Both the position numbers and the translations under genes were made by a program. 64,000 nucleotides of DNA from Phaeobacter sp. A36a-5a (GTDB taxonomy: Bacteria > Pseudomonadota > Alphaproteobacteria > Rhodobacterales > Rhodobacteraceae), in assembly GCF_037911135.1 (NCBI RefSeq), contig NZ_JBBLYU010000004.1, positions 186,001 to 250,000 on the forward strand. The letters run 5' to 3'. Positions 1-9,155 of the stretch are shown piece after piece. The notes under the pieces are model-generated. The model searched no databases. It worked only from the letters and a program-made list of their open reading frames with translations, and was not told the DNA's origin. Numbering within the stretch: the stretch's first letter is position 1; every line of letters begins with the position of its first letter.

Positions 1-360
1 GCCGACCTGATATGCGGTCTGAAGATTCTCGATCACCATGGCGCTGTCGGTGAAATCCTCGCCGTAATCCAACAGCCCGTCGACATTGGCCAGAACCGGA
101 TTGCTGGTCCACAAACGGCGAAGGGCGCGGGTACGGATCCGCGCCGGAATGGTCTCTTTCAGGAACACGCTGAAGTCATCGCCCTGTTGCATCTCATCGG
201 GGTCCGGCAGGTTCAGCTCTTGCAGGATCTCGGCGTCACTTTTCTCCTCCAGCGCCTCTTCGGCGGCCTGACGTGCGGCAGCAGCGACCTCGGCGGCCTC
301 AGCCTCCTGTTCGGCCGCAACACGGGCGCGGCGGCGGGACCAGAAATCATCCCGGCTCAT
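1..360 (-). CDS. DUF3306 domain protein (3' end outside window)
   Basis: The first 120 residues of a protein whose C-terminus runs off the left edge. It opens MSRDDFWSRRRARV, then a long Ala/Glu-rich helix (about residues 15-40), then a segment with LNLPDPDEM and ARIRTRALRRLWTSNP. This is the arrangement of DUF3306, a family of unknown biochemical function known for sitting beside DUF3305 and formate dehydrogenase genes in Rhodobacteraceae. The start ATG overlaps the stop of the upstream DUF3305 gene by four bases (ATGA), so the two are translationally coupled. By analogy the operon should continue leftward into the TorD-like chaperone and formate dehydrogenase subunits; these are not in the window. 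Confidence 0.88.
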   Translation of the reverse strand, partial: MSRDDFWSRRRARVAAEQEAEAAEVAAAARQAAEEALEEKSDAEILQELNLPDPDEMQQGDDFSVFLKETIPARIRTRALRRLWTSNPVLANVDGLLDYGEDFTDSAMVIENLQTAYQVG

Positions 361-932
361 GACAGGCGCGCCTTCTTCAGGGCGGGCGAGCGATAGACAT
401 CGGTCATCTGCGAGATGCGCGGATCGCCGATCCCGTCCTCGCTGGCGTCGGTCTTGACCCGGTCCCGGCGTCGTTTCTTGAACGGCTCGTCGTGAAAATG
501 CAGCTGCGCAAAATCGCGGACCCAGGCAATCAGCCCGTCCGGCATCGGTACTTTTTCCACCAGATCCTCGCCGTTGTCGGCGTAATCCTGCGCCTCATAG
601 GGCGAGGCCGTCACCAAGAGCACCTCAAGCGGCCGATCGTCCGACACGCCGTCGCGCAGGACCACATAGATGCAGGGTGGTTCCGCGGTCAGCCCGTGCA
701 GATAGGCCTCGGCCTCGCTCCGGTGCAGCTCCAGCGGCAGGGTGGCGGCGTGGTACTCCCGCACCTCGCCCGCTTCGCGTAACAGCTGCCAGTCCGCCTG
801 CGCCGCGCCCGGTAGCACCGAGGTTGCCTTCCACGACCAGCGCGCCCAACGGGTCACCCCCGGCTGACGCCGCAGGACGACACCCAGCGGCATCACATCC
901 GTCTTTGCACTGCGATCCCCGGTCTCAGACAC
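357..932 (-). CDS. DUF3305 domain protein
   Basis: A 191-residue protein with the DUF3305 core (PLGVVLRRQPGVTRWARW near residues 15-32, and a YHAATLPLELHRSEAEAY region near 60-77). The function is unknown; the family accompanies formate dehydrogenase operons. Translation is placed at a GTG (932); an internal ATG at 893, just before PLGVV, is a reasonable alternative because many family members begin there. It is the first gene of the leftward operon and is coupled by ATGA overlap to the DUF3306 gene. It is divergent from the ferredoxin-like gene at 1288. Confidence 0.85.
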   Translation of the reverse strand: MSETGDRSAKTDVMPLGVVLRRQPGVTRWARWSWKATSVLPGAAQADWQLLREAGEVREYHAATLPLELHRSEAEAYLHGLTAEPPCIYVVLRDGVSDDRPLEVLLVTASPYEAQDYADNGEDLVEKVPMPDGLIAWVRDFAQLHFHDEPFKKRRRDRVKTDASEDGIGDPRISQMTDVYRSPALKKARLS

Positions 933-1287
933 GTCAACGCCCTATTTGGTCAGTTCGGTTGACAAAACAGTGCCGCATTCTGCGACCACACGGGAAGATA
1001 ACTTTTGCTGATGGCGCGTTAAATCAACATCAAAGGTCAATTTGACCAGCCCGACATGCCCCCTTTGGACAGTGCGGACGAAAAGTCTAATTCGACTAAT
1101 TCACTCAGGCTTAACGCAGGAGAAGCGCGATGCCTTGCCACGGCGAATCACTTGCCTCATCTGAGCCACCCGGCGGCACGGCTGACCGGCAAATTGCGGT
1201 TTACCTGCTTGCGCAAACATGCCTAGTCTAAGCCCGGAGTGGCGGATTTCTGCTGCTTTCACCAAGCGAGAAACACGCGGAGAAAAC
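933..1287. promoter_or_regulatory. Divergent intergenic region, formate dehydrogenase accessory genes
   Basis: A 355-bp gap between the leftward DUF3305 operon and the rightward ferredoxin-like gene, so promoters for both must lie here. The clearest element is a perfect 13-bp inverted repeat, GGTCAATTTGACC, at 1035-1047. A looser GTCA...TGAC arrangement sits near 949-963. The 23 in-frame codons before 1288 are read as leader, not protein. Which regulator binds is unknown. Confidence 0.5.
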
Positions 1288-3237
1288 ATGTCTAAGCAAT
1301 TGATTTTATGTGATTGTGCCGGAACGCAATCAATCGATTCCGAGGCATTGTCCCGTAGCACAGGCCTGCCCTGTTCAAAGCTGCATTCAGCGCTTTGCAC
1401 CGATCAAATCGAACAGGCGGCACAGGCCATCTCGCAGGGGGACGCAATTATTTGCTGCGCCCAGGAGCACCGGATTTTCGAGGCGCTGGCACAGGAAATC
1501 GACCAGCCGGCCCCGGCCTTTGTCGACCTGCGCGACCGGGCCGGATGGACCGCCGATACCGCCTCGACGCTGCCCAAAATGACCGCGCTGATTGCTGAGG
1601 CAACGCTGACACCGCCCCTGTCAAAGACCATAGACCTGCATTCGGAGGGGCTCTGCCTGATCCTTGGCGCGCCGGAGGTGGCCTATGCCGCAGCCGAGCG
1701 GCTGCAGGAGAGCCTCGCGGTGACCGTGCTTCTCGAGACGCCGAGCGACCCCCCTCATAGCCGCGCCTACGATGTGATTTCCGGCCAGCTGCGCCATGCG
1801 CGGGGCGCCTTGGGACAGTTTTCCGTCACCATCGACCGGCTGCAACAGCTGGACGTCACCGGGCGCAGCTGGACCTGGGACGAGGCGCGCGACGGCGGGC
1901 AGTCGGTCTGCGATATCATTCTCGACCTGCGCGGCGGCCAGCCGTTGTTTCCCGCGCCCGAAAAACGTGACGGCTACCTGCGCGCCGATCCAAAGTCCGC
2001 CCCGGCCGTCGCCGAGGCCACGCTGAGCGCCAGCCAGCTGGTCGGCACTTTCGAAAAACCCCTCTACGTGCGCAGCGAGCCGTTGCTTTGCGCCCATTCG
2101 CGCGCCGAGCAGACCGGTTGCACCCGCTGCCTCGATGTCTGCCCGACCGGTGCCATCAGCCCGGCCGGCGATCATGTCAGCATTGACCCGATGATCTGCG
2201 CCGGATGTGGCTCCTGCGCCGTGCTCTGCCCCTCCGGCGCAATCACCTATGACGCGCCGCCAACCGATGCGCTGATGCGCCGGATCCAGACCCTGGCCAA
2301 GGCATATGCAGAGGCTGGTGGCAGCGCCCCCCGCCTGCTGGTGGTCGATCAGCACGGTGATCAGATGGTCGAGCTGGCCGCCCGCCACGGCCGCGGCCTG
2401 CCGGCGGATGTGATCCCCCTGTCGGTTGAGGCGCTCAACAGTTTTGGTCACGCCGAAGCCCTCGCCGCCCTCGCTGCCGGTTTCGCCGAGGTTTCGGTGC
2501 TGCTCTCGCCTAGGGCTGAGCGCGACGTGCAGGACCACGAGCTGGCTCTGGCCACGGCGATTGCCGGGCCCTACCTGCATCTGCTGGAGCTGAACGACCC
2601 GGACCAGCTGAGCGACCGCCTCTTTGACCGCATCGGCGCTCAGGCGCGGGTGGAAACCCCGCAGCGCCCGATGGGCACACGGCGCCAGATCACCCGTCAG
2701 GCCGCCAAGGCTCTGCTGCCCGAAGCCGAAACGCTGCCCCTGCCCGAGGGCGCCCCCTATGGCGCTGTTCTGGTCGCCGCCGACAAATGCACGCTCTGCC
2801 TCTCCTGTGTCTCGCTCTGCCCCTCCGGCGCGCTGGGGGACAACCCGGACCTGCCGCAGCTGCGCTTTCAGGAGGATGCCTGTCTGCAATGCGGTCTCTG
2901 CGCCAATGTCTGCCCGGAGGACGCGATCCGCTACGAGCCACGCCTGAACCTGACATCCGACGCGCTGTCACAGGTGGTCCTGCACGAGGAAGAACCCTTT
3001 GCCTGCGTCGAATGCGGTTCGCTCTTCGGCGTCAAATCCACTATCGACAAGATCACCGAGAAACTGGCCGGGAAACATTCGATGTTCGCCAACCCGGATG
3101 CCGCCCGGATGATCCAGATGTGTGACAATTGCCGGGTCAACGCGCAGTTCCATCAAAAGAACTCGCCCTTTGCAGGCGCGGAGCGCCCCCGTGTCCGCAC
3201 CACCGAGGACTACCTCAGCAAACGCAAGGATCACTGA
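1288..3237 (+). CDS. Multi-cluster 4Fe-4S ferredoxin-type protein of formate dehydrogenase loci
   Basis: A 649-residue soluble iron-sulfur protein. Two tandem pairs of 4Fe-4S motifs are visible: residues about 272-345 (CTRCLDVCPTG, then CAGCGSCAVLCPSG) and 501-550 (CTLCLSCVSLCPSG, then CLQCGLCANVCPED). Two further CxxC pairs near 573 (CVEC) and 612 (CDNC) suggest one more metal site, and the N-terminus has CDC at about 7-9. This architecture is commonly found beside DUF3305/DUF3306 and formate dehydrogenase in Rhodobacteraceae, so a role in electron transfer or enzyme assembly is inferred. The ATG at 1288 (MSKQLILCDCAG) is preferred over the upstream ATG at 1219 because a GGAGA ribosome-binding site precedes it and the family begins there. 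Confidence 0.88.
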   Translation: MSKQLILCDCAGTQSIDSEALSRSTGLPCSKLHSALCTDQIEQAAQAISQGDAIICCAQEHRIFEALAQEIDQPAPAFVDLRDRAGWTADTASTLPKMTALIAEATLTPPLSKTIDLHSEGLCLILGAPEVAYAAAERLQESLAVTVLLETPSDPPHSRAYDVISGQLRHARGALGQFSVTIDRLQQLDVTGRSWTWDEARDGGQSVCDIILDLRGGQPLFPAPEKRDGYLRADPKSAPAVAEATLSASQLVGTFEKPLYVRSEPLLCAHSRAEQTGCTRCLDVCPTGAISPAGDHVSIDPMICAGCGSCAVLCPSGAITYDAPPTDALMRRIQTLAKAYAEAGGSAPRLLVVDQHGDQMVELAARHGRGLPADVIPLSVEALNSFGHAEALAALAAGFAEVSVLLSPRAERDVQDHELALATAIAGPYLHLLELNDPDQLSDRLFDRIGAQARVETPQRPMGTRRQITRQAAKALLPEAETLPLPEGAPYGAVLVAADKCTLCLSCVSLCPSGALGDNPDLPQLRFQEDACLQCGLCANVCPEDAIRYEPRLNLTSDALSQVVLHEEEPFACVECGSLFGVKSTIDKITEKLAGKHSMFANPDAARMIQMCDNCRVNAQFHQKNSPFAGAERPRVRTTEDYLSKRKDH

Positions 3238-3266: not shown

Positions 3267-4049
3267 CTACTTATGCTCCAACGGCGCCCCCAGATCCGCG
3301 GGGCTGAGCACGGCCACATAGGCGAGGATATTCTCCAGCTCGTCCAGCGTGAGTTCGACCGGAACAATCGGCGAGGGGCGTGCCTCGTCGAAGGGCGGCG
3401 TGATCTCGGCAATCTGGGTAAAGGCGGGATGCGGGTTCAGCGCGTAGAAGGCCTGAAACCGCTCCTCCCAATTGGCGAGGCTGCGCAACACATAGAACGA
3501 CGGGGTCGAGCCGATACTGTTGATCCGTCCGGCCTCCTCCACCGCGTGACAGCGCCCGCAGTGGGATTTGGACAGATCGTATCCACGTCCGGCGTCGCCG
3601 TCCCATGTGGTCACAGCCACCGCGGCCTGTGCCTGCTTCGGCACCCGGAACATCTGGCGCCCCTCGGGGGCAAAGGCGGCAATCGTGCGCGCGCCCACAT
3701 CAGAGGTCAGCCAGTCTGCAAAGCGCCGCGCCCCGGCGTGATCCGGCGCGATCAGCTCCAGATGCCAGACGGTCCCGTCCCCCTCCATCACGGGCTGGCC
3801 GGTCGTGCCCAGCATCATCTCGGCGACATCATTGCTGTCGACCAGTTCGATCCGCACCTGCGTCTTCAGCGAAAACCGCGGCAACAGAAACCCCAGCACC
3901 CCGGTCTCCACCAGTGGCGCAGGCGCGGCCAGTCGCAGCTTTGCCGGATCGCTCTCGGCCTGTCCGCTGGCCGGTCGCAGGATCAGCGCAAGCAGAATTA
4001 TCGCCAGTATTCCCGCGTAACCGCGCAAAAGAGTACATACCCAGACCAT
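3267..4049 (-). CDS. Exported short binding-protein-like domain fused to cytochrome c
   Basis: A 260-residue protein with an N-terminal hydrophobic segment (residues 9-25) and a likely signal peptide ending near ASGQA (27-31). One c-type haem site, CGRCH, lies at 164-168 with a C-terminal cytochrome c fold around it, so the protein is periplasmic or membrane-anchored. Residues about 38-135 resemble the outer parts of a tungstate/molybdate-type binding protein: a GVLGFLLPRF segment matches GLAEVLLPQI of TupA nearby, and FADWLTSDVGARTIAAF matches LEGWLVSDTAKELINGY. The middle of that fold is missing. The start at ATG 4049 is chosen over a TTG at 4106. It is convergent with the ferredoxin-like gene (29-bp gap) and divergent from mrp. 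A redox partner role is inferred only. Confidence 0.75.
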   Translation of the reverse strand: MVWVCTLLRGYAGILAIILLALILRPASGQAESDPAKLRLAAPAPLVETGVLGFLLPRFSLKTQVRIELVDSNDVAEMMLGTTGQPVMEGDGTVWHLELIAPDHAGARRFADWLTSDVGARTIAAFAPEGRQMFRVPKQAQAAVAVTTWDGDAGRGYDLSKSHCGRCHAVEEAGRINSIGSTPSFYVLRSLANWEERFQAFYALNPHPAFTQIAEITPPFDEARPSPIVPVELTLDELENILAYVAVLSPADLGAPLEHK

Positions 4050-4178: not shown

Positions 4179-5243
4179 GTGTCCCTCACTCGTGAAACTG
4201 TCCTAGAGGCGCTCAAGACCATCAAAGACCCGGTGTCCGGCAGCGATATCGTCGCCGCCGGCATCGTCCGCGCGCTCAATATCGAAGAGGGCACAGTCCG
4301 CTTTGTGCTGGAAATCGACCCGGCCAAATCCGATATCTACGCGCCCGTGCGCGATGAAGCCGACGCAAAGGTGACGGCGCTGCCCGGCGCGGGCAAGGTT
4401 TCGGCCATGCTGACCGCCCATTCCGAAAAGGCGCCGCCGGACCTGAAGCCCAAACCGGCCGCCCAGCCGCAGGGGCCGCAGAAAATTCCCGGCGTCGACC
4501 GGATCATCGCGGTTGCCTCCGGCAAGGGCGGCGTCGGCAAGTCCACGGTTTCGGCGAATATCGCCTGTGCCCTGGCCGCTCAGGGCCGCCGTGTCGGCCT
4601 GCTTGATGCTGATGTCTACGGCCCTTCGCAGCCCAGGATGCTGGGGGTCTCCGGTCGGCCCGCCAGCCCGGATGGCAAAACCATCCTGCCGATGCGCAAC
4701 CACGGGGTCACCATGATGTCGATCGGCCTGATGACCAACGAGGATCAGGCGGTTGTCTGGCGCGGCCCGATGCTGATGGGGGCCCTCCAGCAGATGATGA
4801 TGCAGGTGCAATGGGGCGCGCTGGACGTGCTGATCGTGGACCTGCCGCCGGGCACCGGTGATGTGCAGATGACGTTGGCGCAAAAGGCGCATGTGGACGG
4901 CGCCATCGTGGTGTCCACCCCGCAGGACGTGGCGTTGATCGACGCCCGCAAGGGCATCGACATGTTCCAGAAACTCAACGTGCCGATCATCGGCATGGTG
5001 GAAAACATGTCCACGCATATCTGCTCCAACTGCGGGCATGAGGAACATGTCTTTGGCCATGGCGGCGTTGCTGCCGAGGCTGAGAAACTGAATGTGCCGC
5101 TGCTGGCGGAGATCCCGCTGCATCTGGATGTGCGCGTTGCCGCCGACGGTGGCGCGCCGATTGCGGTCAGCAAACCCGACAGCGCGCAGGCCAAGGCGTT
5201 CCATGATCTGGCGGCAGATCTGATCGCCAAGGGTCAGGCCTGA
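4179..5243 (+). CDS. apbC: Iron-sulfur cluster carrier protein Mrp/ApbC
   Basis: A 354-residue P-loop ATPase that carries and delivers 4Fe-4S clusters in the cytoplasm. It has an N-terminal DUF59/MIP18 domain (about 1-80), a Pro-rich linker (84-100), the deviant Walker A SGKGGVGKS at 114-122, and the cluster-bridging CxxC (CSNC) at 282-285. Length and domain order match the family. It starts at GTG 4179, which is preceded by a good AAGGAGC site. A gene for cluster delivery beside a multi-cluster ferredoxin and a formate dehydrogenase locus fits the need to assemble many clusters. It is followed after 4 bp by the ligase-like gene, so it probably heads a three-gene operon. Confidence 0.95.
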   Translation: MSLTRETVLEALKTIKDPVSGSDIVAAGIVRALNIEEGTVRFVLEIDPAKSDIYAPVRDEADAKVTALPGAGKVSAMLTAHSEKAPPDLKPKPAAQPQGPQKIPGVDRIIAVASGKGGVGKSTVSANIACALAAQGRRVGLLDADVYGPSQPRMLGVSGRPASPDGKTILPMRNHGVTMMSIGLMTNEDQAVVWRGPMLMGALQQMMMQVQWGALDVLIVDLPPGTGDVQMTLAQKAHVDGAIVVSTPQDVALIDARKGIDMFQKLNVPIIGMVENMSTHICSNCGHEEHVFGHGGVAAEAEKLNVPLLAEIPLHLDVRVAADGGAPIAVSKPDSAQAKAFHDLAADLIAKGQA

Positions 5244-5247
5244 TCCG

Positions 5248-5964
5248 ATGGCCGAAATGAGCGACCTCAGCTTCCCCCCCCTGATGGAGGGGCTCGCGCT
5301 CAGCGGGGCCGACGATCCCTTTGCCATCGCCTGTCAGAAGGCGGTTCTGGGCTGCGACGCAGGTCTGGTGGTGCATAACCTGCTGCATGACCGGCTTCAG
5401 GCGGCCTTTGTCTTTGCGCCCGAGGTTGCCCTGCGGCAGGCCATGACCATGCTTCCGGTCTGCGGTATTGCACTGCAAAACGCCCTTGGCGCGCTGGCCC
5501 CGCCCGAGGTGGCGGTGCATCTGCAATGGGACGGCGGTCTGCGCATCAATGGCGGTCGCTGCGGCCGGCTGCGTGCCGCCGCCAGTACAACCGCGCCATC
5601 AGAGGTGCCAGACTGGCTGGTCATCGGCCTCGACCTGCCGCTCTGGCCGCCGAGCGACGGGGAAACCGGCGATCGTCCCGAGGATACCGCGCTTTATGCC
5701 GAGGGCTGCGCCGATGTGGATGCAGGCCAGTTACTGGAAAGCTGGGCCCGCCACGCGCTGCACTGGATCAACCGCTGGGAAGAGGACGGCACGGAGCCGG
5801 TGCACACGACCTGGCGCGGCCTTGCCCAGGATATTGGCGAAACCGTCACCCATGCGGGCCTGAATGGCACCTTCCTCGGCGTGGACGAAGATTTCGGCCT
5901 GCTGTTGCGGGACGAGGCGACAACCCATCTGATCCCCCTGACCACCCTACTGGAGACACCGTGA
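5248..5964 (+). CDS. Biotin/lipoate-ligase-like protein with DUF4444 tail, probably inactive as a ligase
   Basis: A 238-residue protein matching the biotin/lipoate protein ligase family with a C-terminal DUF4444 domain (about residues 180-238, including FLGVDEDFGLLLRD). The ligase core looks degenerate. The GRGRxGR loop that binds the acyl-adenylate is absent from the N-terminal half; the KWPND block reads QWDGG at 93-97; and the region of the catalytic lysine reads GGRCGR at 102-107, with arginine. A non-catalytic or altered role is inferred. It lies 4 bp after mrp and overlaps the start of the DUF6505 gene (stop TGA shares its A with the next ATG), so the three genes are probably one transcript. 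Confidence 0.8.
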   Translation: MAEMSDLSFPPLMEGLALSGADDPFAIACQKAVLGCDAGLVVHNLLHDRLQAAFVFAPEVALRQAMTMLPVCGIALQNALGALAPPEVAVHLQWDGGLRINGGRCGRLRAAASTTAPSEVPDWLVIGLDLPLWPPSDGETGDRPEDTALYAEGCADVDAGQLLESWARHALHWINRWEEDGTEPVHTTWRGLAQDIGETVTHAGLNGTFLGVDEDFGLLLRDEATTHLIPLTTLLETP

Positions 5965-6582: not shown

Positions 6583-7386
6583 CTATGGCGCCGCGTTGAA
6601 CACAAACAGCGCCTCGCCATTGATCTGGTAGCCGTTGATCAGCTCCTTGGCGGTATCCGACACCAGCCAGCCTTCCAGCCGGGCTGCGGATTCTGCCTTC
6701 ACATGGGGGTGTTTCTGCGGGTTGACCGGCAGATAGGCATATTGGTTGAACAACACCGGATCCCCCGCATAGAGCAGCGCCAGATCGCCCTTGTTGGCGA
6801 AATTGAGCCAGCTTGCGCGGTCCGACATGATGTAGCCCCCCATGCCAGAGGCTGTATTCAGCGCTGCCCCCATGCCTGCGCCAACAGCGTTGTACCAGCC
6901 GCCAAATCCGTCAGGTGACAGATCCGCCGCGGCCCACAGGCTCAGCTCTTTCTTGTGGGTGCCGCTGTCATCGCCGCGACTGACAAAAGCCACCTCGGAT
7001 ACGGCCACTTTTTGCAGTGCCTCCGCTGCCGACTGCGCGCGGCCAATGCCCGCCGGGTCCGCCTTGGGGCCTACAAAGACGAAATCATTATACATGATCT
7101 CGCGGCGATGGGTGCCGTTGCCGCCTGCCAAAAACGCCTCCTCGGCCTTCTTCGAATGCACCAGAATCGCATCCACATCGCCCGCCTCGCCCAGACGGAT
7201 CGCCTGACCGGTGCCCACCACCAACAGCTGCACCTCCAGCCCCAGATCCGACTTGATCTGCGGCAGCAGAACCTCTGCCAGACCGGAGTTGTGGAAGGAT
7301 GTGGTCACCGCCAGCTTCATCTCCTCCGCCAGCGTCGCCGTCCCCATTGTCAGCGCAGCCAGTGCCCCCAGCACAATCCGTTTCAT
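6583..7386 (-). CDS. tupA: Tungstate ABC transporter, periplasmic binding protein TupA
   Basis: A 267-residue exported binding protein with a signal peptide (residues 1-20, ending TATLAE). It opens with LAVTTSFHNSGL, the anion-pocket Thr-Thr-Ser typical of TupA, and has FVSRGDDSGTHKKELSLW mid-protein, the second pocket segment. Family knowledge gives high-affinity tungstate capture; molybdate cannot be excluded from sequence. It is the last gene of tupB-tupC-tupA and its ATG overlaps the tupC stop by four bases. Proximity to a formate dehydrogenase locus suggests the metal feeds that enzyme. Confidence 0.9.
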   Translation of the reverse strand: MKRIVLGALAALTMGTATLAEEMKLAVTTSFHNSGLAEVLLPQIKSDLGLEVQLLVVGTGQAIRLGEAGDVDAILVHSKKAEEAFLAGGNGTHRREIMYNDFVFVGPKADPAGIGRAQSAAEALQKVAVSEVAFVSRGDDSGTHKKELSLWAAADLSPDGFGGWYNAVGAGMGAALNTASGMGGYIMSDRASWLNFANKGDLALLYAGDPVLFNQYAYLPVNPQKHPHVKAESAARLEGWLVSDTAKELINGYQINGEALFVFNAAP

Positions 7387-8108
7387 TCGACAATGTCTCC
7401 TCTTAGAAATGCGCGGCCCTGTTCGGTATGGGGTCGGGTAAAAAATGCCTCCGCCGCTGAAAACTCGGCAATCTGACCGTGCAGAACAAACAGCACCTCA
7501 TCCGCCAGACGCTGTGCCTGACCCATATTGTGGGTCGACATGATCAGCCGGGTGCCTGCCGCTACCGCTTCGGTCAGGATCTCCTCGATTTCGCGAGTGG
7601 CGCGCCCGTCGAGCGAGGCGCAAGGCTCATCCAGGAACAGCAGCTGCGGCTTGCGGATCAGGGCCCGTGCCAGCGCCAGTTTCTGCCGCTCACCGCCCGA
7701 CAGCAGCACCGCAGGCCGGTGCAGCGCATCGCCGCCCAGACCGATCCGCTCAGCCCAGATCTCGGCCTCGGCCAGCGCCACCTTGCGGGGCACCCGGTTC
7801 AGCCGCAGCGGATAGGCGATATTTTCCACCACAGAGCGGCGCATCATCACCGGCGTCTGAAACACAAAGGCCTGGCGCCGCTGGGCTTCGGCCATGGCGC
7901 AACCCCAGCTGATCCGCCCCTGCCCCAGTCGCAGGATGCCATGCAGCATCTTCAGCAGGGAGGTCTTGCCCGAACCATTCGGTCCGATCACGATGGTCGT
8001 CCCCTGTCCGTCCAGCCGCAGATCCACCGGACCAATCAGTGTCTTGCCACGACGGCGCACCTGCGCCGCCTCGACAACCAGCGGAAAAAGACTGCTCACC
8101 TTGCTCAC
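7383..8108 (-). CDS. tupC: Tungstate ABC transporter, ATP-binding protein TupC
   Basis: A 241-residue single ABC ATPase: Walker A GPNGSGKT at 42-49, signature LSGGERQKLALARAL near 138, and Walker B LLFLDEP followed by the D-loop ASLD. It powers tungstate import with TupB. It starts at GTG 8108, overlapping the tupB stop (GTGA), and its stop overlaps the tupA start (ATGA), giving a tightly coupled three-gene operon. Confidence 0.92.
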   Translation of the reverse strand: MSKVSSLFPLVVEAAQVRRRGKTLIGPVDLRLDGQGTTIVIGPNGSGKTSLLKMLHGILRLGQGRISWGCAMAEAQRRQAFVFQTPVMMRRSVVENIAYPLRLNRVPRKVALAEAEIWAERIGLGGDALHRPAVLLSGGERQKLALARALIRKPQLLFLDEPCASLDGRATREIEEILTEAVAAGTRLIMSTHNMGQAQRLADEVLFVLHGQIAEFSAAEAFFTRPHTEQGRAFLRGDIVE

Positions 8109-8809
8109 CAGCGGCCCTCGCTCTCGGTCTGACCCAGCCAGTGGATGGTCAGATTCACCGCCACCGCCAATGCGATCAGCACAAAGCCAAGCCCCAGCGC
8201 CATGGCAAAATCCCCTTTGCCGGTCTCCAGCGCAATCGCCGTCGTCAGCACCCGGGTGGCATGGTCGATATTGCCGCCAACGATCATGATCGCCCCCACC
8301 TCACCGATCGCGCGACCAAACCCAGCCAGCGCCGCCGTGAGCAGCGCCCGCCGCCCGTCCCACAGCAGCGTGGCAATGCGCTGGCTCTGGCTGGCATTCA
8401 GCGAAATCAGCAGATCGTGGTAATCGCTCCACAGATCGCGCAGCGACTGATGCGCGATCGAGGCGATGAGCGGCACGATGATGATCACCTGCGCAATGAT
8501 CATCGCGGTCGGGGTGAACAGCAGCCCCAGTACCCCGAACGGACCGGCCCGCGACAGCAGCACATAGACCACCAGCCCCACGACCACCGGCGGCAGCCCC
8601 ATCAGGGCGTTGAGCACCGCAATAGTGACCCGACGCAGGCGAAACCGGCGCACCGACAGCAGCGCCGCCAGCGGCAGCGCAATCACCGAGGCCACCAGCA
8701 ACGCGGTCAAAGTGACCCGCAACGAACGCAGCGTGATCTCGACCAGATCGCCATCCAGCGTGACCACCAGCCAAAAGGCCTGGACCAATCCTTCCCAGAG
8801 ATCAGACAT
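8105..8809 (-). CDS. tupB: Tungstate ABC transporter, permease TupB
   Basis: A 234-residue inner-membrane permease with about five or six hydrophobic segments. It carries the cytoplasmic EAA-type loop (WDGRRALLTAALAGFGRAIGE region) characteristic of molybdate/tungstate-class permeases. The start is set at the ATG 8809 (MSDLWEGLVQ); the longer reading from a TTG at 8878 adds a non-hydrophobic leader not expected in the family. First gene of tupBCA. Confidence 0.9.
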   Translation of the reverse strand: MSDLWEGLVQAFWLVVTLDGDLVEITLRSLRVTLTALLVASVIALPLAALLSVRRFRLRRVTIAVLNALMGLPPVVVGLVVYVLLSRAGPFGVLGLLFTPTAMIIAQVIIIVPLIASIAHQSLRDLWSDYHDLLISLNASQSQRIATLLWDGRRALLTAALAGFGRAIGEVGAIMIVGGNIDHATRVLTTAIALETGKGDFAMALGLGFVLIALAVAVNLTIHWLGQTESEGRW

Positions 8810-9155
8810 GGAGGCGGATTTTCTCCCTTGTGGGACCGGTCTTACCGCTTCCCGATACTGTGTGAACGCTATCTGCAAACCACAATATCAGCCCGCCCAA
8901 TAGACAAAAACGACACCGGGTGTGAAAATTGGACAAATTGACCGCGCACTGTTTGCGCTGACATCGCCCGATGGTCAGATGGTCTTGGCGCCGCCCCCAG
9001 CGTCAGGTTGCCGATGCGCCCCGATTGCCGCCGATTTGCACCAGGATTTCCGGTTTTTACGCAACAAAGCGGCTGCACTCGCTTGCGTGCTAAATGTGAA
9101 CATGAAACAAGAATTCCCCAAAGTGCCACGTCAGGCGCAGCTTTGAGGAAATGCC
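8810..9155. promoter_or_regulatory. Divergent intergenic region between tupB and nadA
   Basis: A 346-bp gap that must hold the leftward tup promoter and the rightward nad promoter. It is AT-richer than the genes around it (for example near 8875-8945 and 9090-9120). I see no perfect long palindrome. A GAGGAAA ribosome-binding site immediately precedes nadA. Confidence 0.4.

Follow-up and report, generated by a model that had tools for sequence, protein, structure and literature searches.

In the window, by which we mean the whole stretch of 64,000 nucleotides of Phaeobacter sp. A36a-5a DNA that was analysed, a single open reading frame encodes an exported protein, here called CytX, in which part of a tungstate-binding protein of the TupA type is joined to a cytochrome c. 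The genes around it were assigned as follows.

357–932, minus strand: DUF3305 formate dehydrogenase (FDH) accessory protein (Pfam, E 2e-45)
1219–3237, plus strand: multi-4Fe-4S accessory protein (Fer4) of the FDH3 locus, tail-to-tail with CytX (neighbour in 80/80 named-genome loci)
3267–4049, minus strand: CytX, exported fusion of TupA lobe A and cytochrome c (260 aa ORF; sequence and homologues)
4179–5243, plus strand: Mrp/ApbC-type Fe-S carrier, divergent from CytX (neighbour in 79/80 named-genome loci)
5248–5964, plus strand: biotin/lipoate-ligase-like protein with DUF4444 (domain match), which follows Mrp as a fixed part of the block
6583–7386, minus strand: intact TupA with both lobes and the TTS motif (NCBIfam TupA, E 1e-52)
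7383–8108, minus strand: TupC, ABC transporter ATPase (domain match)
8105–8878, minus strand: TupB, permease (NCBIfam TupB, E 4e-48)

The CytX gene, which is transcribed towards Fer4 and away from Mrp, lies outside the fdhA-fdhB-gamma transcription unit, which is found further along in the same genome together with DUF3305, DUF3306 and a TorD-like chaperone. The tupA-tupC-tupB set lies about 2.5 kb from CytX, on the side away from the fdh genes. The first-pass annotation had placed the gene between formate dehydrogenase accessory genes and the tungstate transporter; this placement is correct, but the Mrp gene, the lipoate-ligase-like gene and one further ORF intervene before tup. FdhA of this genome (L002) carries a twin-arginine-like leader, and therefore the FDH enzyme should share the compartment of CytX. 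The locus also encodes a second cytochrome, outside the window at the end of the fdh operon (L002:2283-3617, minus strand), a protein with WD40 repeats that ends in a cytochrome c (CSICH, with the Met retained) and is also present in the fdh loci L120, L122, L126, L131, L172 and L174.

No second copy of CytX was found in the Phaeobacter sp. A36a-5a genome. A scan of genome contigs with the single protein returned no relatives and an alignment-based scan was needed, which yielded 411; full-length or near-full-length homologues numbered 91 among 248 genomes of the family, and an alignment of 80 of them served as the family profile. In databases these proteins are annotated merely as ‘hypothetical protein’ or ‘c-type cytochrome’. 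In Sagittula stellata E-37, where the annotation of the equivalent block includes ‘formate dehydrogenase FDH3 subunit beta’, CytX is WP_005864027.1, labelled ‘hypothetical protein’. The family databases searched hold no model spanning the whole of CytX, and a literature search returned no paper on CytX or on fusions of binding proteins with cytochrome c; the published account of DUF3305 and FDH found in that search does not mention a cytochrome c. This architecture, whose parts are known, appears in none of the families and papers searched.

One TupA lobe followed by a cytochrome c

The layout of the protein, all of it on the minus strand, is as follows.

3957–4049, residues 1–31: signal-like N-terminal segment without a lipobox (sequence)
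3633–3944, residues 36–139: TupA lobe A alone, without the ligand motif (model and profiles)
3864–3878: R58-F-x-L-K62 motif (R and K invariant in 80/80, not conserved in TupA)
3603–3632, residues 140–149: variable linker (pairwise identity)
3270–3602, residues 150–260: cytochrome c domain (weak Pfam Cytochrom_C match, model)
3546–3560, residues 164–168: CGRCH haem-attachment site (C, R, C and H invariant in 80 sequences)
3429–3431: His207 in the NPHP motif, proposed distal haem ligand (invariant)

Hydrophobic leaders are present in the homologues too, and mean pairwise identity within CytX is 17% in the linker, 38% in the lobe and 54% in the cytochrome. The AlphaFold model has a mean pLDDT of 90.8, with values of 93–98 in the lobe, whose predicted fold is of the TupA/ModA type, as the first-pass annotation had supposed. 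Its best structural match is TupA (5my5 chain 2-251), with a Z of 14.9 and an rmsd of 2.1 Å over 105 residues by VIA-align, followed by TupA-like 3muq (Z 12.8), 3kn3 (12.0) and ModA (11.8). Foldseek returned nothing at E < 0.001 with either of the models searched, and the TupA assignment is built on VIA-align, HMMER and hhalign.

Searches with the single CytX sequence gave matches to TupA that were below threshold yet correctly placed, with 3muq aligning at residues 37–84 and 103–126 and the NCBIfam TupA model (NF041772) at residues 103–136 (E 0.021). With the family profile, the TupA-type structures 3muq (E 3.7e-4), 3cvg (5.2e-4) and 5my5 (1.1e-3) were recovered from the PDB; 3muq and 5my5 align in two collinear pieces, the N piece to the N-terminus and the C piece to the C-terminus, and 3cvg aligns in the C-terminal piece. 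In hhalign against 50 TupA sequences, 104 of 105 columns were aligned with lobe B skipped (probability 96.5–98.5), and each half of the lobe alone found its own place, the N half at TupA 2–38 (95.2) and the C half at TupA 210–245 (97.3). The reversed profile and 40 column shuffles, run as controls against TupA, gave probabilities of at most 1.8. At E < 0.1 the NCBIfam TupA model was matched by 25/80 members, and other Pfam solute-binding-protein models were matched by one or two members each. Against the model’s cut-off of 400 bits the CytX of the window scores 14 bits, and the window’s intact TupA, at 179 bits, likewise falls under it.

In TupA, lobe A consists of residues 2–76 and 201–251 and lobe B of residues 91–200 (PMC5517513). 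Because the pattern of matches fits these boundaries, residues 36–139 of CytX correspond to lobe A alone, and the protein consists of one complete TupA lobe, with lobe B missing, followed by a class I-like cytochrome c. What CytX shares with TupA of the TupABC transporter (5my5, 3lr1; NF041772) is the fold of lobe A, a collinear sequence and the ‘GL..LLP’ and ‘WL.S..G...I..F...G..LF’ segments; it differs in the deletion of lobe B, the loss of TTTS and the other ligand residues, the lack of an ABC transporter of its own and the fused cytochrome. Profiles, hhalign and structural alignment thereby confirm the earlier proposal of an exported protein that keeps the first and last TupA-like segments without the middle, and the single CxxCH that had been noted after them is present as C164-G-R-C-H168.

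Tungstate in TupA is contacted by T9–T11 and S12 in lobe A and by R118, T124 and D170 in lobe B (PMC5517513). The TTS is kept in 50/50 aligned TupA rows having residues there, and the CytX columns at its position (43–45) hold mostly P, A and E. The lobe B residues R118, T124 and D170 are absent from CytX together with their lobe, the whole domain being only about 105 residues long and the region being skipped in hhalign. Because TTTS is lost and lobe B is missing, CytX should not be expected, from its sequence, to bind tungstate in the manner of TupA. Other positions are fixed: R58, K62 and W113 are invariant in 80/80 homologues, the lobe is retained by all 80 aligned family members, and dN/dS on the five closest pairs is about 0.2 in the lobe and about 0.12 in the cytochrome, placing both domains under purifying selection. 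With R58, K62 and W113 invariant and a dN/dS near 0.2, the lobe appears altered yet maintained, not decaying.

The haem domain and its invariant histidine

Pfam Cytochrom_C is matched weakly by 64/80 members, and the protein of the window scores below its cut-off. The top structural matches of the cytochrome-domain model are class I cytochromes c at modest Z values of 5–7.7, and its first Foldseek match is SoxX of SoxAX (1h31/1h32 chain B). A single-target search of CytX against SoxX gave an i-E of 5e-5 in two pieces, and kinship between the two haem domains is only suggestive. With class I cytochromes c, SoxX among them, CytX shares a CxxCH close to the domain’s start and, probably, the general fold, and the long loop after the distal-ligand motif is similar (MPAF in SoxX, HPAF in CytX); it differs in having no Met ligand, in the invariant His of NPHP and in a signature of its own, GSTPSF...NPHPAFTQ.

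No conserved Met was found at the distal-ligand position of CytX, where the aligned residue is F, V, L, H or I, and Met is absent there in 45/46 sequences of CytX and its stand-alone relatives. His207 is invariant in 80/80 CytX sequences and in 46/46 when stand-alone relatives are included. In a profile alignment to the genome’s own SoxX, His207 falls on the Met of MPAF, and in a MAFFT alignment with a Met-keeping relative it lies three residues before the Met. The distal haem ligand is probably His207 instead of Met, which would give a bis-His haem with His168 and His207.

CytX at FDH3 loci, and its gain and loss

CytX and DUF3305, an accessory gene of the FDH3 type, occur together in 90 of the 248 genomes, CytX without DUF3305 in 1 and DUF3305 without CytX in 30 (Fisher p 7e-40). 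In the one genome with CytX alone (G008) the contig ends at 10.3 kb. Contig ends aside, the order fdh-TorD-DUF3306-DUF3305-Fer4-CytX-Mrp is essentially unchanged in 57/60 loci, and Mrp-CytX-Fer4 is kept in 79/80 loci from named genomes, which include Phaeobacter, Shimia, Roseovarius, Ruegeria, Mameliella and Jannaschia. CytX is encoded almost exclusively at FDH3 loci. The tup operon lies within 8 kb of CytX in 30/80 named-genome loci; among the 61 genomes checked for it, TupA is present in 30/30 with DUF3305 vs 12/31 without, and tungstate uptake tracks the FDH3-type enzyme, not CytX specifically. Of the co-occurrence with fdh and tup genes that had been anticipated, the first part therefore stands firmly (90/91 CytX genomes with DUF3305) and the second, with tup close by in only 30/80 loci, partially.

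Outside its own family, full-length CytX was found in just two genomes, both belonging to a related one (f80). A stand-alone cytochrome without the lobe occurs elsewhere in Alphaproteobacteria, often in fdh or tup loci (L166–L169, L171, L172, L174, L177), with TupA nearby in L167, L169 and L172. In L166 this lobe-less cytochrome sits exactly at the CytX site, between Mrp and Fer4. These stand-alone proteins share the cytochrome domain and the locus with CytX, and have no TupA lobe and no assigned function. Because stand-alone cytochromes occur in fdh and tup loci, with that of L166 at the CytX site itself, the haem domain appears to be the FDH-linked part and the lobe the addition. A lobe-less protein is also found at the CytX locus of G342, the sole genome of its order in the set. 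In L177 (7665-10340) a stand-alone CytX-type cytochrome immediately precedes tupB-tupC-tupA and reads in the same direction, which suggests that it is co-transcribed with the tungstate transporter. In two genomes of the CytX family itself, lobe-less CytX-type cytochromes were also observed with no fdh gene nearby, in L051 (genome G004) and L072 (genome G054), and the fdh locus of G004 (L133) has no CytX.

In loci lacking CytX, Fer4 and Mrp are usually side by side, with a gap of 0.05–0.4 kb. In seven loci (L119, L122, L123, L129, L130, L131 and L132) CytX is cleanly missing between the two genes, and these offer natural controls for its function. On the Fer4 tree the label for CytX presence switches 11 times, and at least 9 of these switches are forced by well-supported branches. 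As at least 9 gain or loss events have taken place on this tree, FDH3 would work without CytX, and its repeated loss points to a step that is accessory and not essential. The simplest story is that a cytochrome in an fdh/tup locus was joined to a piece of tupA about once, and that the fusion was then repeatedly and cleanly lost.

Proposed function of CytX

We propose, with a probability of about one half, that CytX works in the periplasm as an accessory redox protein to the FDH3-type formate dehydrogenase, with the TupA lobe for docking and the haem for electrons. The lobe, having no ligand site, would serve as a docking module on periplasmic FdhAB through the conserved R58 and K62, and the haem would shuttle electrons between FDH3 and further carriers of the periplasm, in a secondary pathway beside the quinone-linked one of the gamma subunit. 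With His168 and His207 as its ligands, the haem would be of low potential. CytX would be optional, several lineages having FDH3 and no CytX. That a docking fold combined with a haem could pass electrons to or from a periplasmic FDH had been put forward from the sequence at the outset, and the TupA-type fold and the fdh linkage leave it the best reading. Our literature search found no description of an electron route of FDH3 beyond the quinone-linked gamma subunit.

A partial precedent exists in methanol oxidation, where XoxJ, a periplasmic-binding-protein-like partner in the XoxF/XoxG system, is needed for XoxF function and is its proposed activator (PMC7391723). As in XoxG/XoxJ (MxaG/MxaJ), a periplasmic dehydrogenase has a cytochrome dedicated to it and a partner that resembles periplasmic binding proteins (PMC7391723); CytX differs in being one chain and not two proteins, in the enzyme concerned and in residing in an fdh locus instead of a methanol dehydrogenase operon. 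At slightly less than even odds, CytX may be a natural single-lobe binding protein that began as a tungstate receptor. In this reading the receptor was joined to a cytochrome gene in an fdh/tup locus and then gave up one lobe and the ligand site; the lobe that was left would have become the docking module of a dedicated carrier of electrons (or of an activator) for a W/Mo FDH, and CytX would be the single-chain equivalent of the XoxG and XoxJ pair.

The main rival is a role in maturation or activation, in which CytX binds newly exported FdhA or FdhB and haem electrons switch the W/Mo centre or the Fe-S clusters to the active state. The parallel with XoxJ as proposed XoxF activator (PMC7391723) favours such a role, as do the fixed neighbours of CytX, which are all of the biogenesis type (Mrp/ApbC, the TorD-like chaperone, DUF3305, DUF3306 and the multi-4Fe-4S protein). 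However, CytX has been lost cleanly in several lineages that keep FDH3, which is not what one would expect of a core assembly factor, and we consider this explanation rather unlikely.

It is improbable that CytX is a redox or gas sensor, whose haem, with an open or weak sixth ligand, would signal the redox state to a partner via the lobe. The absence of a conserved Met ligand (45/46 without Met at the aligned position) is consistent with this, and in the genome of the window the far end of the locus carries genes for a sensor kinase and a sigma-54-type regulator, the regulator also being present in Sagittula; but these regulator genes are at least 8 kb away and do not adjoin CytX, which is itself without an output domain. 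A non-functional leftover of a tupA-cytochrome gene fusion, with the lobe a mere passenger, would account for the faster evolution of the lobe (38% vs 54% mean pairwise identity) and for a locus such as L166 with the cytochrome alone at the equivalent site, but is quite improbable given R58, K62 and W113 invariant in 80 sequences, a lobe dN/dS of about 0.2 and the presence of the lobe in all 80 aligned members. Least of all can CytX be expected to sense or bind tungstate or molybdate, or to couple metal status to respiration, as the first-pass annotation had also suggested: despite the kinship of its lobe with TupA, a tup operon close by in part of the loci and TupA in 30/30 DUF3305 genomes, the contact residues are lost (TTTS) or lie in the deleted lobe B (R118, T124, D170), and close tup linkage holds in about half of the loci or fewer (within 8 kb in 30/80 only), making this idea highly improbable.

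CytX is kept in hundreds of sequenced, marine Rhodobacteraceae-type genomes. If the proposed docking and electron-carrying role is correct, CytX would be the missing redox partner or activator of periplasmic FDH3 enzymes, and it would show that a periplasmic binding protein can be pared down to a single lobe and put to new use as an interaction domain.
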